NCBI GenBank assembly: GCA_027019265.1
Contig: JALUWX010000122.1
Coordinates: 52,041-116,040 of the forward strand
Length of the DNA stretch: 64,000 nt
Source: Phycisphaerales bacterium
GTDB lineage: Bacteria > Planctomycetota > Phycisphaerae > Phycisphaerales > UBA1924
Direction of reading: 5' to 3'
Positions 570-7,145 of this stretch are shown in pieces (the first letter of the stretch is position 1; each line of letters opens with the position of its first letter). The notes under the pieces were generated by a model. That model saw only the letters and a list, made by a program, of their open reading frames with translations, was not told the DNA's origin and did not search any database. The position numbers were made by a program, and so were the translations under genes.

Positions 570-1010
570 TCAGGCCGCGTTCGATCGAGAAGCGCTGAGT
601 TCTTGCTTGAATCGGTTGAGCGCGGCGAGGGCGGCGCGGCCGGAGACGGCGGGCTCGCCTCGCGCTTGGCGTGCGATGAAGCGGAAGACGGAGCGATCGA
701 GATCGACCCGATCGGAGAGATCGAGGACCCCCATCCCCCAATCGTCGAAGGAGCGGGCGCGGATGGGGGTATCGAACAGGACCTCGATGTTGGTGTGTCT
801 CGGATCTCGTCGGATCTTCTCGAACACGGTGTCGAGGTCGTCCCGTGATCCCTCGAGGACCTGGATGAAATGGGTCCCGGAGTAGAGGAGGAGCCCGGTG
901 AGCCCGTGCTTGGTGTTCTTTGCGTTCGCGATCCGGGCGAGCTCGTCGAGCTCGGATCGATCGAAACCCTCCCATGCGCTGCTCAGGTACACGATGTGAT
1001 GGAGGTCCAT
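570..1010 (-). CDS. BLUF domain protein (canonical Tyr8 and Gln present)
   Basis: MDLHHIVYLSS...GLTGLLLYSGTHFIQVLEG...DPRHTNIEVL matches BLUF pattern. Confidence 0.85.
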   Translation of the reverse strand: MDLHHIVYLSSAWEGFDRSELDELARIANAKNTKHGLTGLLLYSGTHFIQVLEGSRDDLDTVFEKIRRDPRHTNIEVLFDTPIRARSFDDWGMGVLDLSDRVDLDRSVFRFIARQARGEPAVSGRAALAALNRFKQELSASRSNAA

Positions 1011-1085
1011 CTCGATTCCTCTCGGGCCGCGATCAAGCGGGGTTGCGGGGGTGTGCGGGTCTGGGCATTGCAGGGCCGGGAACGG

Positions 1086-1532
1086 TCAGGCGACATAGCT
1101 GTCGCTGATCCAGGTGGTGTTATCGAGGTAGAAGTCGAGGAGCATCCGGTAGGCGGCATCGCCGGCGCTGCTCGGATCTTGTTTTGCCTTGTCCGCGATC
1201 TTCCGGATCCGTTCTCGATCGAGAGGCTCCATCCGGGCCATATTCAGGACACCCATCGAGCTGGAGATGAAGCTTCGTTCCTTGATGCGTGTGCTGAGGA
1301 GGACCTCGATCTCGGTGTGTCTGGGATCCCGTGCGATCTTCCCGAACATGGTGTCGAGCTTGTCTTTCTCTCCTTCGAGGACCTCGATGAAGTTGCCGTC
1401 GCAATAGATGAGGAGCCCGGTGATCCCGGCGCGCTCATTGTTGGATGAGGCGATAAGCGAGAGGTTCGAGAGCTCGAGCTCGGAGAACGGCCGGATCGCG
1501 GTGCTCATAAAAACGATGGTGTGGAGGTCCAT
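1086..1532 (-). CDS. BLUF-like protein with substituted photoactive residues
   Basis: MDLHTIVFMST...GITGLLIYCDGNFIEVLEG...DPRHTEIEVLL; Phe at the Tyr position, Glu at the Gln position. Confidence 0.8.
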   Translation of the reverse strand: MDLHTIVFMSTAIRPFSELELSNLSLIASSNNERAGITGLLIYCDGNFIEVLEGEKDKLDTMFGKIARDPRHTEIEVLLSTRIKERSFISSSMGVLNMARMEPLDRERIRKIADKAKQDPSSAGDAAYRMLLDFYLDNTTWISDSYVA

Positions 1533-1755
1533 ACGCAGCTCCTGTCGATCGGAAACCGTTCCGGATCGCAGCCTGACAGATCGGGCCGTGTTCGGATGAG
1601 CTTGTTCGAAAGCAGTGAAGATGTGCTTTCCAACACGCTGTCCGGCGAATAGAACATCGGGGGATGCGGGTGTTTCCCCTTGTCGTGGGAGTCCGGATGC
1701 GATTCGATCCATCTGGATGGGACCGGTAACCTGCCGTGGGTGAGGAGGACAAGCG

Positions 1756-2235
1756 ATGGCGAACCCGGACTGGAACCCGAGGACCTACGAGACGTTCGAT
1801 GATGTTCGAGCTGAGCTGGATCGCTTCGAGGAGGCGCATGCGCGTGGGACCCTCCGGGCGACGGGGGGTTGGAGCGCGGCGCAGATCTTGGAGCACTGCT
1901 CGATGCCGATCCTTGGCGCGTTGGACGGAGCGACTGGTGTGCAGCTTCCGCGGTACATGCGTGTGGCCGGGCGGTTTGTCTTTAAACCGATGCTCGGGAG
2001 GAGCCGGATGAAGCCGGGGATCAAGCTCCCGAAGAGCGCGTCGGCATGGATCCCCGAAGAATCACTGACGTTCGAGCGTGGGATGTCTTCGATGCGTGGG
2101 GTGCTCGATCGTCTCTCCAGCGGAGAGCGGATGATCCACGATTCGCCGTTGATGGGGAAAATGTCGCATGAGCAATGGACAACGCTGAATCTCGACCACT
2201 GCCGACTTCATTTCGGGTTCATCCAGTGCGATTGA
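1756..2235 (+). CDS. DUF1569-like protein
   Basis: W(S)AAQILEHCSMPI... and LNLDHCRLHFGFIQCD C-terminus resemble DUF1569/DinB-like proteins. Confidence 0.65.
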   Translation: MANPDWNPRTYETFDDVRAELDRFEEAHARGTLRATGGWSAAQILEHCSMPILGALDGATGVQLPRYMRVAGRFVFKPMLGRSRMKPGIKLPKSASAWIPEESLTFERGMSSMRGVLDRLSSGERMIHDSPLMGKMSHEQWTTLNLDHCRLHFGFIQCD

Positions 2236-2249
2236 TCTGTTCAATGTCC

Positions 2250-2286
2250 GTCGGCGGAACCCACGCGCGAGCGTGAGTTCGCCGAC
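2250..2286. terminator. Long GNRA-capped hairpin between convergent genes
   Basis: GTCGGCGGAACCCACGC-GCGA-GCGTGAGTTCGCCGAC; no T-run. Confidence 0.5.
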
Positions 2287-2337
2287 AGAACCCCTTGAGA
2301 CCCGGTCCTTCGAAGGTACCCGAAATCAAGGGGTTGC

Positions 2338-2829
2338 TCAAGCGTGTTCGTTGGAACCTGTGAGATCCTGCGCCCCCGAGGACCCGGGTTCGATGATGCA
2401 TGGAGCGCCGGACGACATGGCGTGATAGAACTCGGTGAGCATGCCCAGAGCGGCTTCGCCGGCGCGTTCGGTGTTCTGGAGCGCTGTATCCGCGATCATG
2501 GTGAGCGACTCACGATTGACGACCTTGTTGGGCTGGGAAGGGAGCACCCCCATCGAGGTGTCGGTGATCCATCGAGATTCGATCGGGCGATAGAGGAGGA
2601 CCTGGATATTGCCGTGCCGCTCGTCTCTGCTGATCCGCCCGAGGACCCGATCGAGGTCATCGCTATCACCCTCAAGGACCTCGAAGATGTACTCGGGGGA
2701 GTAGAGGAGCACGCTCTTGACATTGACCTTGGCGGCCCGCTCATGGATCTCACACGCGATCGCTTTGAGTTCGTGTTCTTCGAGCGGCCTGCGCGGGTTG
2801 CTCATAAAGACGAGAGTGTGAAGCCCCAT
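2338..2829 (-). CDS. BLUF-like protein with substituted photoactive residues
   Basis: MGLHTLVFMSN...VLLYSPEYIFEVLEGDSDDLDRVLGRISRDERH. Confidence 0.75.
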   Translation of the reverse strand: MGLHTLVFMSNPRRPLEEHELKAIACEIHERAAKVNVKSVLLYSPEYIFEVLEGDSDDLDRVLGRISRDERHGNIQVLLYRPIESRWITDTSMGVLPSQPNKVVNRESLTMIADTALQNTERAGEAALGMLTEFYHAMSSGAPCIIEPGSSGAQDLTGSNEHA

Positions 2830-2932: not shown

Positions 2933-3508
2933 TTATCGCCCCGGATTCGGGGGTGATTCTTGCTCGATCGACCACGACAGCGACTCTCCTGTGCAGTCGA
3001 TGTGGATCGCGAAAAAGCCCGGGCCGCCGTCGGATCCGCTGTGTTCGTGCTTCCGGACCATCGGCCAGATGATCTCACGATCGGTGTTGGGAACGGGGAG
3101 GGAATCGAGCTCGTCGAGGGTGTGCCAACGGAGCTCGCCCTCGTCCATGTGCCCGTCCACGACTTCCACGGGGGTCATGACCCGGAAGTAGAAGAGGAGC
3201 CAGTGGGTTTTGGCTTCGAAGGCTTTCTCGGAGATGAGCCCGACGAGACGGATGTCATCGATCCCGACATCGATCCCGGCCTCTTCCTTGATCTCGCGCT
3301 GGGCGCATTGGGTGGGTGATTCCCCCAGCGCCATCTCGAGCTTCCCGCCGATGGGTGAGCAGAGCCCTTTGTTGGGTTCCTTGTTGCGATGGAGCAGGAG
3401 GAGTCTGCCGTCCTTGTCGCGCAGATCGCAGAGACACGCGAGCTTGTAGGGGAGTGTGTTGCTCGGGTCTTCGGTCAAACCCGGGAGGATGTTCGCGGCG
3501 TCGCTCAT
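2933..3508 (-). CDS. NUDIX hydrolase
   Basis: Nudix box GGKLEMALGESPTQCAQREIKEEAGI. Confidence 0.9.
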   Translation of the reverse strand: MSDAANILPGLTEDPSNTLPYKLACLCDLRDKDGRLLLLHRNKEPNKGLCSPIGGKLEMALGESPTQCAQREIKEEAGIDVGIDDIRLVGLISEKAFEAKTHWLLFYFRVMTPVEVVDGHMDEGELRWHTLDELDSLPVPNTDREIIWPMVRKHEHSGSDGGPGFFAIHIDCTGESLSWSIEQESPPNPGR

Positions 3509-3956: not shown

Positions 3957-5189
3957 TCAGGAGATCACCCCGACACGCTTGAGGGCGCGTTCGAACTGGG
4001 ACCAGCGCTGCTCGACGCTCCCCGTGTACCCGATGGAGATGCGCACAAGACCCGGCGCGATCCCCGCTTGGCGCAGCGCCTCGTCCGTCATCTCGCTCGA
4101 GGTCGATCGCGCGGAGCACGACATCAGGGTGTCGAAGTACCCGAGGGAGACGGCCATGTACCCGAAGCGCTCGTCGTTCTGGAGGGTCTCCATGAGCGCG
4201 TCCGCGCGTTCGCTCGACCCGACATCGAGCGCGAAGACACCCCCCGCGCCGTAGTCGTCGTTCGCGATGCGTTTGAGCACCTCGTGATCCGGATGGTCCG
4301 TGAGCCCCGGGTAGATCACGTCGATCCCGAGATCCTGGATGCGCTGCGCGAAGATCGAGGCGCGTTTCCCGTGCTCGACCATGCGCAGTCCGAGGTGGGG
4401 AAGGCGCAGGGAGATATCGAAGGCCGTCCTCGGATCCATGGTGGGTCCGAGGAGCATGAGCGATCCGACATGGAGATCCATGAGGGATCCGATGAACTCG
4501 TATGAGCCGCAGATGACCCCGGCGATGAAGTCGGACGCGCCGTTGAGGAACTTGGTCGCGCTCGCGACGACGACGTCCGCGCCCAAGCGGATCGGGGAGA
4601 CGACGAGGGGGGTGAAGGTGTTGTCCACGACGAGTTTCGCGCCCCGATCGTGCGCGATCTTCGCGAGCTTGGGGATGTCGCTCACGCGCAGGGTCGGGTT
4701 GCTCATCGTCTCGACGTAGAGGACCTTGGTGTTGTCACGGAACGCGTTCTCGACCTGTTCAAGATCGTGCGCGGCGACGAACGTGGTTTCGATGTTGCAC
4801 TTGAGGGGGAGGTAGTCGTGGAAGAACGCGTAGGTCCCGCCGTACAGGGTGTCGGTGGAGACGATGTGGTCCCCGGCGTTGCAGATCTGGGTGATCGCGG
4901 CGCTGATCGCGCCCATCCCGGAGGCGCACGCGTATCCCGCTTCGGAGCCCTCGATGGCCGCGACCTGTTTCCCGAGGTTGTAGACCGTGGGGTTGAAGTG
5001 CCGGCCGTAGAGGTAGCAGCCCCCTTCGTCGGGTCCGTGCTGACCCTGGAAGATCTCGGGCATGGTGTGCGCGTTCATGACGGTGAAGGTGGTGGACGCT
5101 TCGATCGACATGTTGACGCCGCCGTGCTCTCCGAACTCGTGCTTGGCGTCGGCGAGGGCTTCGATGGGGTTGGCTTTGATGGGGTCCAC
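3957..5189 (-). CDS. Cys/Met metabolism PLP-dependent enzyme (trans-sulfuration family)
   Basis: YGRHFNPTVYNLGKQVAAIEGSEAGYACASGMGAI; VVASATKFLNG PLP Lys motif; GTG start. Confidence 0.9.
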   Translation of the reverse strand: MDPIKANPIEALADAKHEFGEHGGVNMSIEASTTFTVMNAHTMPEIFQGQHGPDEGGCYLYGRHFNPTVYNLGKQVAAIEGSEAGYACASGMGAISAAITQICNAGDHIVSTDTLYGGTYAFFHDYLPLKCNIETTFVAAHDLEQVENAFRDNTKVLYVETMSNPTLRVSDIPKLAKIAHDRGAKLVVDNTFTPLVVSPIRLGADVVVASATKFLNGASDFIAGVICGSYEFIGSLMDLHVGSLMLLGPTMDPRTAFDISLRLPHLGLRMVEHGKRASIFAQRIQDLGIDVIYPGLTDHPDHEVLKRIANDDYGAGGVFALDVGSSERADALMETLQNDERFGYMAVSLGYFDTLMSCSARSTSSEMTDEALRQAGIAPGLVRISIGYTGSVEQRWSQFERALKRVGVIS

Positions 5190-5315
5190 GGGTCGTCCTC
5201 TCTCCGGTGCTGACAATGGGCGCGCCGTCGCGCGGAACACGGAATGAGTATTGGCGTTTCAGGGCTCGAAAATCAGTGAGAACCGTGCGCGGACCTCAAC
5301 CGGGCTTCGGAACAG

Positions 5316-7145
5316 TTACTCGTGGACCCAGGCCGTGCGGTCCGTCGCGACGTGGTAGTGGGGGTCTTCGGAGATATTCACTTCCACGAGGTCCCCAGCG
5401 CGATCGAGGAGTCGGCGGCAGTCCTCACTCAGGTGGCGCAGATGGAGCTGTTTGCCCTGCTTTTGGTAGCGTTCCGCGAGCGCGTTGATCGCTTCGAGCC
5501 CGGACTGGTCGTACACGCGCGAGAAGTAGAAATCGATGACCACGTCGTCGGGGTCGCGCGCGGGGTCGAAGAGGTCCCGGAAGCGCGAGACGGACCCGAA
5601 GAACAGCACACCGTGGAGCTGGTAGATCCGGGACCCGTGCTCGTTGTCCTGGACATCGGCGACGAGGTACTTGCTTTTGTTCCACGCGAAGACGAGCGCG
5701 GACAGCGCCACCCCGATGACGACGGCCGTCGCGAGGTCGTGCATGAACACGGTGTAGAGCGCGACGACAAGCATGATGAGGACTTCGGGGATGGGGATCC
5801 GGCGCCAGGTCTGGAGCGTGGTCCATTCGAAGGTCCCGATGACGACCATGAACATGACCCCGACGAGCGCCGCGACGGGGACGGACTCGATGAGGGGGGA
5901 GAGGAAGAGGATGAAGAGGAGCATGGTGATCGCGGCGGTGATCCCGGAGAGGCGCCCGCGCCCGCCGCTCTTCACGTTGATGAGGGATTGGCCGATCATT
6001 GCGCACCCGCCCATAGACCCGAAGAACCCGGAGGTGATGTTCGCGATCCCCTGACCCACGCATTCCCGGTTCCCGCTCCCGCGCGTTTCCGTGAGCTCGT
6101 CTACGAGGGTCATGGTCATCAGTGATTCGATGAGCCCGACCCCGGCGAGGACCACGGAGAAGGGGAGGATGATGAGGAAGGTGTCCCAGGTGAAGGGTGG
6201 GAGCTCGAAATCGAACCACGCGGGTCTCGGGAGACCCCCGGCAATCCCGACGGTGTCGAGGTCCACGGAATCGATGGCCGCTTGTGTCTCCGCTTCGGTG
6301 AGGGGCGCGATCGGCGCGTGCTCGCTCGGGACCGCTTCGACCCCCTCGGGGAGGGTGGCGCTCAGGGCGCTGAGCGCTTGGGTGTCCTTCTCGTGCTGCG
6401 CCGTTGCGACGGCGGCCGCTCTTGTGTTGTCGATGAGGACATCGCGCACGGTGAGGACGGTGCGCTCGGGTTCGGTGCCTTCGGTGTCCGACGCGCTGTT
6501 CGCGTTGATCACCAGCGCGACGAGAGAGATGGAGACGATCGCGACGAGCGAGGACGGGACGGCGCGGGTGAGCTTGGGGAGGATCGCGATGATTGCCATC
6601 GTGACTCCGACGAGCGCGAGCATGAGCCAGAGGCGGGATCCCGAGACGTACTCGAGGACCCCGTTGTCCCCGAGGGTTTTGAAGCTCCCGAACTGCGCCG
6701 TGAGGATGACGATCGCGAGCCCGTTGACGAACCCGAGCATCACAGGGTGGGGGACGATCCGGATGAGCTTCCCGAGGCGCAGGACCCCGACGAGGATCTG
6801 GAGGATCCCGCACAGCACGATCGCCGGGAAGAGGTATCCGATCCCGTGGTGGGTGACGAGACCCACGGCGACGACGGCCATCGCGCCGGTTGCGCCCGAG
6901 ATCATCCCGGGTCGGCCTCCGAAGATGGAGGTCAGCAGACACATGATGAATGCGGCGTAGAGCCCGACGAGGGGTGGGACGTTCGCGACAAACGCGAACG
7001 CGACGGCTTCCGGGACGAGCGCGAGCGCGACCGTGATCCCAGAGAGGACCTCCGCTTTGGGTGATCCGGACATCGCGGAGCGGATGTCGAACACGAGGAG
7101 TTTGGATTTGAGCTTGTCGGAGAGGGTGTTCGTGGAGTCGGACAT
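5316..7145 (-). CDS. SulP family anion transporter with STAS domain
   Basis: [43 protein letters not shown]-terminal STAS-like region. Confidence 0.9.

Follow-up and report, generated by a model that had tools for sequence, protein, structure and literature searches.

What can a BLUF protein still do once both residues that drive its photochemistry have been replaced, and how should two such proteins be read when they are encoded beside an intact one? The question is raised by positions 570-2829 of a 64,000-nucleotide stretch of DNA from a Phycisphaerales bacterium (the window, meaning the whole stretch that was analysed). The BLUF photocycle requires electron and proton transfer from a tyrosine and a rearrangement of a glutamine (PMC10799861). 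This reactive pair, Tyr8-Gln50 in PixD numbering, is present in the first of the three proteins encoded at the locus, P1, and absent from the other two, P2 and P3.

A canonical BLUF protein and two paralogues

The original prediction of three BLUF-type proteins on the minus strand between 570 and 2829 was borne out. Open reading frames were found for all three (Table 1), each with an ATG start and a plausible ribosome-binding site, and all score above the curated cut-off (25 bits) of the Pfam BLUF profile PF04940, with 101.6 bits for P1, 86.9 for P2 and 63.0 for P3 and a match spanning model positions 1-92 of 92 in each. P1 and P2 share 46% protein identity, and P3 is 35-39% identical to the others (about 38% to P2 and 36% to P1). 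The genes do lie close together, as predicted, with a gap of 75 bp from P2 to P1, which follows it on the minus strand, but they do not form an uninterrupted run, as a plus-strand DUF1569 gene splits P2 from P3. Promoter and terminator scans gave no signal above that of shuffled sequences. The DUF1559-like pseudopilin and DUF1569/DUF1579 genes would fit a planctomycete.

Table 1. Positions of the BLUF genes, their neighbours and a related gene pair in another genus
Feature	Position	Strand	Length
P1, canonical short (PixD-type) BLUF protein	570-1010	minus	146 aa
P2, BLUF paralogue, Phe8/Glu50	1086-1532	minus	148 aa from ATG 1532
P3, BLUF paralogue, Phe8/Glu50	2338-2829	minus	163 aa
DUF1569 (DinB-like) gene between P2 and P3	1756-2235	plus	
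NUDIX hydrolase gene, right-hand border of the BLUF slot, conserved in the genus	2933-3508	minus	
DUF1579 gene between P1 and atpD	22-483	minus	
atpD, just left of the window	G000:C122:50534-51982		
G133 tandem canonical and Phe8/Glu50 BLUF genes	L111:4359-4826 and 5071-5568 (G133:C65)		

The layout is that of the PixD-type short BLUF proteins, with a single domain, two C-terminal helices and about 140-160 aa. Predicted structures of P2 and P3, made from three-sequence alignments and with a mean pLDDT of about 70, are too weak to judge the pocket, but both models have the BLUF fold followed by two C-terminal helices, predicted at residues 106-117 and 120-146 in P2 and at 106-118 and 120-139 in P3. 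Foldseek matched these models, whose confidence is moderate, to PixD, OaPAC and AppA structures with a probability of 1.00, and the best matches were full-length PixD structures, C-terminal helices included. TePixD Y8F (8i98) was matched with E-values of 1.5e-11 (P2) and 4.9e-10 (P3), Slr1694 (2hfn/2hfo) also ranked high, and a further hit is 3mzi, whose title is ‘pseudo-Signaling State of the BLUF Photoreceptor PixD Y8F mutant’. By profile, P1-P3 are members of the BLUF family, and P2 and P3 are so by predicted fold as well. The closest known systems are PixD (Slr1694, Synechocystis) and TePixD (Tll0078), stand-alone short BLUF proteins of equal length with two C-terminal helices, which are among the best sequence matches as well as the best fold matches and with which P1 shares every key residue. 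Unlike in these, Phe8 and Glu50 occur naturally in P2 and P3, Trp91 has been lost from both, and no PixE-type or other partner gene adjoins the locus, the neighbours being housekeeping or DUF genes.

Key residues of the flavin pocket

Residues were numbered as in PixD by alignment to Tll0078/TePixD. At positions 8, 32, 50, 91 and 93, P1 has Tyr, Asn, Gln, Trp and Met, P2 has Phe, Asn, Glu, Ser and Met, and P3 has Phe, Ala, Glu, Thr and Met. The alignment and the codons thus agree with the original assignment of Tyr/Gln to P1 and Phe/Glu to P2 and P3: P1 uses TAC for Tyr8 and CAG for Gln50, and both P2 and P3 use TTT for Phe8 and GAG for Glu50, each replacement amounting to one base change, silent third positions aside. 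The fourth BLUF gene of this genome, away from the locus, encodes Tyr, Asn and Gln.

The same prediction had held that the Asn before the GxTGLL segment was replaced in all three proteins (by His, Ala and Val), which was an error arising from the wrong alignment column. In PixD, it is Asn32 that contacts the flavin (PMC5899715). This Asn lies five residues ahead of the I/L of ITG/LTG; it is kept in P1 (AAC) and P2 (AAT), and only P3 has Ala (GCC). P3 also has VKS in place of the ITG segment, and P2 retains Asp69, Arg71, His72 and Met93 besides Asn32. The case for retained flavin binding by P2 is therefore better than first thought, and from these residues flavin binding appears more likely for P2 and doubtful for P3. 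The broader picture of one canonical and two pseudo-BLUF proteins stands, and is backed by the alignment, the profile scores, the fold matches and the comparative data below.

The BLUF slot beside atpD

The slot between atpD and the NUDIX gene is conserved in the genus and takes four forms. It can be empty, with NUDIX adjoining atpD and no BLUF match (G001, G005, G007, G014 and G017), or hold one canonical BLUF gene (G003, G018 and G006; in G006 atpD adjoins the BLUF gene, but the NUDIX match is poor). In G002, G004, G012, G013, G015 and G016 it holds a diverged Tyr8/Glu50 BLUF gene, with atpD adjacent in all six and the NUDIX border seen in those whose retrieved stretch extends that far. The fourth form, P1 with P2 and P3, is found within the genus in this genome only.

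A seventh Tyr8/Glu50 copy of the genus lies at a contig end (G009), so that 6/7 members of this clade (loci L012-L016, L018 and L019) sit in the slot beside atpD. They resemble P2 and P3 in having Glu for Gln at position 50 and, for these six, in location, and differ in having kept Tyr8 and Trp91, lost Asn32 and the D-x-R-H motif, and low BLUF scores (20.8-44.5 bits). Tyr8, Glu50 and Trp91 are invariant in 7/7 of the clade's proteins. In its two closest pairs dN/dS is about 0.2 (0.21/1.03) and 0.08 (0.15/1.79); judged by its sequences, the clade is under purifying selection.

No orthologous triplet was found elsewhere in the genus. In another genus of the same family (G133), a canonical BLUF gene is directly followed by a Phe8/Asn32/Glu50 one, beside atpD. 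A contig scan with P2 and P3 returned no orthologues; its two hits were distant Flavobacterium proteins with Tyr8/Asn32/Glu50. With P2 as the tblastn query, plasmids yielded nothing but matches below 60% identity, annotated as BLUF or unannotated. Flavobacteriaceae MAGs encode BLUF-like proteins with Tyr8, Asn32 and Glu50 but without Trp91/Met93 at L066:1156-1440 and L067:4001-4249, possibly a further natural Glu50 group outside the phylum.

Census and phylogeny

Family, order and phylum searches gave 102 distinct BLUF domains, a set biased to this family. Most (85) have Tyr/Gln, nine have Tyr/Glu and three Phe/Glu; Phe/Gln, Cys/Gln, Tyr/His and Phe/Ser are single cases, and one domain is truncated. 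Losses of Tyr and of Gln co-occur, Gln being lost in 4/6 domains without the Tyr vs 10/95 with it (Fisher p=0.003, uncorrected for the relatedness of the rows, and with few pairs available to a phylogenetic pair test). Among the departures from the canonical pattern are a tandem BLUF pair (L043:3769-4977; G119:C40) in which one copy has Cys for Tyr8 and keeps Gln, His for Gln50 at L042:1330-1926 and L053:816-1187, with Ser for Asn32 as well in L042, and Phe8 with Ser50 at L106.

In a tree built without the key residue columns, P2 and P3 are sisters (support 98/59) and group with the canonical proteins of the genus (97/84), and the Phe/Glu copy of G133 pairs with its canonical neighbour (80/92). 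A single clade of the three Phe/Glu proteins was marginally rejected (AU p 0.047), and, once the Tyr/Glu proteins of the genus were added, a clade of these with P2 and P3 was not (p 0.488). Glu50 within the genus may thus go back to a single origin, some copies having been lost afterwards. The tree would accommodate two histories: either conversion happened repeatedly, or an old paralogue with Glu50 occupied the slot and was lost in some lineages but not in others. Long branches limit both.

A proposed role for P2 and P3

Having lost Tyr8, the electron donor, and Gln50, the residue that switches, P2 and P3 should be unable to run the BLUF photocycle, and since YnF mutants, AppA Y21F among them, are not photoactivatable (PMC10799861), both should be light-blind. 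The published mutants further suggest in which state they may be held. A review describes PixD Y8F as locked, even in the dark, in its light-signalling conformation (PMC5899715). AppA Q63E and Slr1694 Q50A are cited in one paper's text as locked in a pseudo-light-excited state (PMC6695109), and the title of Dragnea 2010, as it appears in a reference of PMC4780082, concerns a locked state of AppA Q63E. The original suggestion was of light-independent flavin/redox sensors or heteromeric partners of P1; the literature favours a narrower version of it, a light-locked conformation. Because P2 carries both changes while Asn32 and Met93 are intact, a mimic of the lit state is the most economical reading. 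We propose, with moderate confidence, that P2 and P3 act as naturally occurring mimics of the lit state, BLUF subunits insensitive to light through which signalling by P1 or by its partner is tuned.

In our proposal, Phe8 and Glu50 would keep both the pocket and the output through Met93 and the C-terminal helix in the light-signalling form, light or not. P2 and P3 could then report ‘light’ continuously to the same partner as P1, or alternatively might join the P1 oligomer and determine how stable its dark state is and where its threshold lies. As the lit state of PixD dissolves the decamer and frees PixE (PMC5899715), a lit-mimic copy could fix the output or weaken P1 assembly. The lit-like conformation, the mixed oligomers with P1 and the choice of partner are inferences here. 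P3 may be a lit-state mimic like P2 or may have lost its flavin, since without Asn32 and the ITG turn it may bind none at all.

The comparison with the mutants has a limit. PixD Y8F and AppA Q63E each reproduce one of the changes in P2 and P3, site and residue alike, but they are engineered single mutants, whereas P2 and P3 have both together, naturally and long maintained. The mutant data come from AppA and PixD with one residue changed at a time. We found no report of a Phe and Glu double mutant in the literature searched, and the Y7A/Q51A double mutant of A. baumannii BlsA is unlike Q51A (PMC6695109), so the effects of single mutations may not add.

Taking the slot as a whole, we suggest more tentatively, and with some doubt, that a class of constitutively light-signalling BLUF subunits has evolved at this conserved atpD-side locus, perhaps more than once, with Glu50 and with or without Phe8, either alongside the photoactive copy or replacing it.

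P2 and P3 could instead be free of chromophore and kept as interaction modules, either as apo-BLUF scaffolds or as decoys that, with no flavin-dependent state of their own, poison or cap oligomers of P1. We think this possible but rather unlikely. It would suit P3, which has neither Asn32 nor the ITG turn, and the Tyr8/Glu50 slot clade, which has lost Asn32 and D-x-R-H yet is under purifying selection. The insolubility of BlsA Y7A and Q51A, taken as a flavin-dependent folding problem (PMC6695109), also speaks for it. However, an apo scaffold would have no need of the Asn32, Asp69, Arg71, His72 and Met93 that P2 keeps.

The flavin-site residues conserved in P2 would also suit a light-independent sensor of redox state or of a ligand, with FAD bound to P2 and P3 and a redox response through Glu50. 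LOV and BLUF photocycles run only with oxidised flavin, which in principle would allow a coupling to redox state (PMC4844311). However, the locus has neither a redox gene nor a Cys signature, and such a sensor would leave the Phe8 that accompanies Glu50 unexplained, which makes this role improbable in our view.

Age and maintenance of P2 and P3

NG86 dN/dS among P1-P3 was set aside because a shared GC3 bias depresses apparent dS, and was replaced by a test of codon identity at sites with the same residue. P2 and P3 use identical codons at 26/52 such sites, with 29.9 expected if silent sites are randomised, and P1 and P3 at 24/49, with 28.2 expected; for P1 and P2 the count is 45/66 vs 39.2 expected, a slight excess that is not decisive. 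A recent duplication was rejected for P3, as its silent sites are randomised against both P1 and P2. That P3 has nevertheless kept its frame, 35-39% identity, Met93 and the D-x-R-H motif implies long purifying selection. P2 too has an intact frame, Met93 and D-x-R-H, and GC3 is 0.76-0.81 in P2 and P3 vs 0.80 in P1, with normal codon use. On this sequence evidence, P2 and P3 are old, maintained paralogues and not recent debris.

These data largely refute the view, which we consider very unlikely, that P2 and P3 are functionless duplicates decaying before inactivation. In its favour are the high NG86 dN of P1 and P2 (0.59, with an uncorrected dN/dS of 0.82) and the fact that the Phe8/Glu50 forms P2 and P3 come from a single genome. 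Against it, dS is underestimated through the GC3 bias, the frames, ribosome-binding sites and codon use are intact or normal, comparable proteins are found in another genus and within the Tyr/Glu clade, and a neutral gene would not last for as long as it took to randomise the silent sites of P3 with identity and fold kept. That P2 is still photoactive by another route, with a Trp or another Tyr as donor, is highly improbable: Trp91 can donate an electron to the excited flavin in YnF mutants, but these mutants are reported to be non-photoactivatable (PMC10799861) and Trp91 too is lost in P2 and P3.

Natural variants as a test of BLUF signalling

We found no description of a natural BLUF protein with both Tyr and Gln replaced in the open literature searched, most subscription journals lying outside it. 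The search pattern of one BLUF survey demanded both residues (PMC4844311), so such proteins would have been invisible to that survey. BLUF signalling has so far been dissected almost only with engineered mutants, and long-kept natural genes with Y8F and a Q-to-E change at position 50 offer a natural test of the role of the lit conformation. If P2 or P3 is lit-like, it would provide a ready-made light-insensitive control and show a photoreceptor losing its light input while keeping its output; if the reading of a whole subunit class is true, a photoreceptor would have become a signalling subunit whose output is fixed or triggered in some other way.

Finally, P1 has a sub-threshold match to Pfam TEX47 (24 bits against a cut-off of 25), consistent with TEX47 being BLUF-related. 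MOT7 is a eukaryotic axonemal BLUF-domain protein and TEX47 its potential human homologue (PMC10266980). MOT7 offers a case of a BLUF-domain protein within a structural assembly, but its context is unrelated, and the likeness lies in the domain and the weak TEX47 match of P1.
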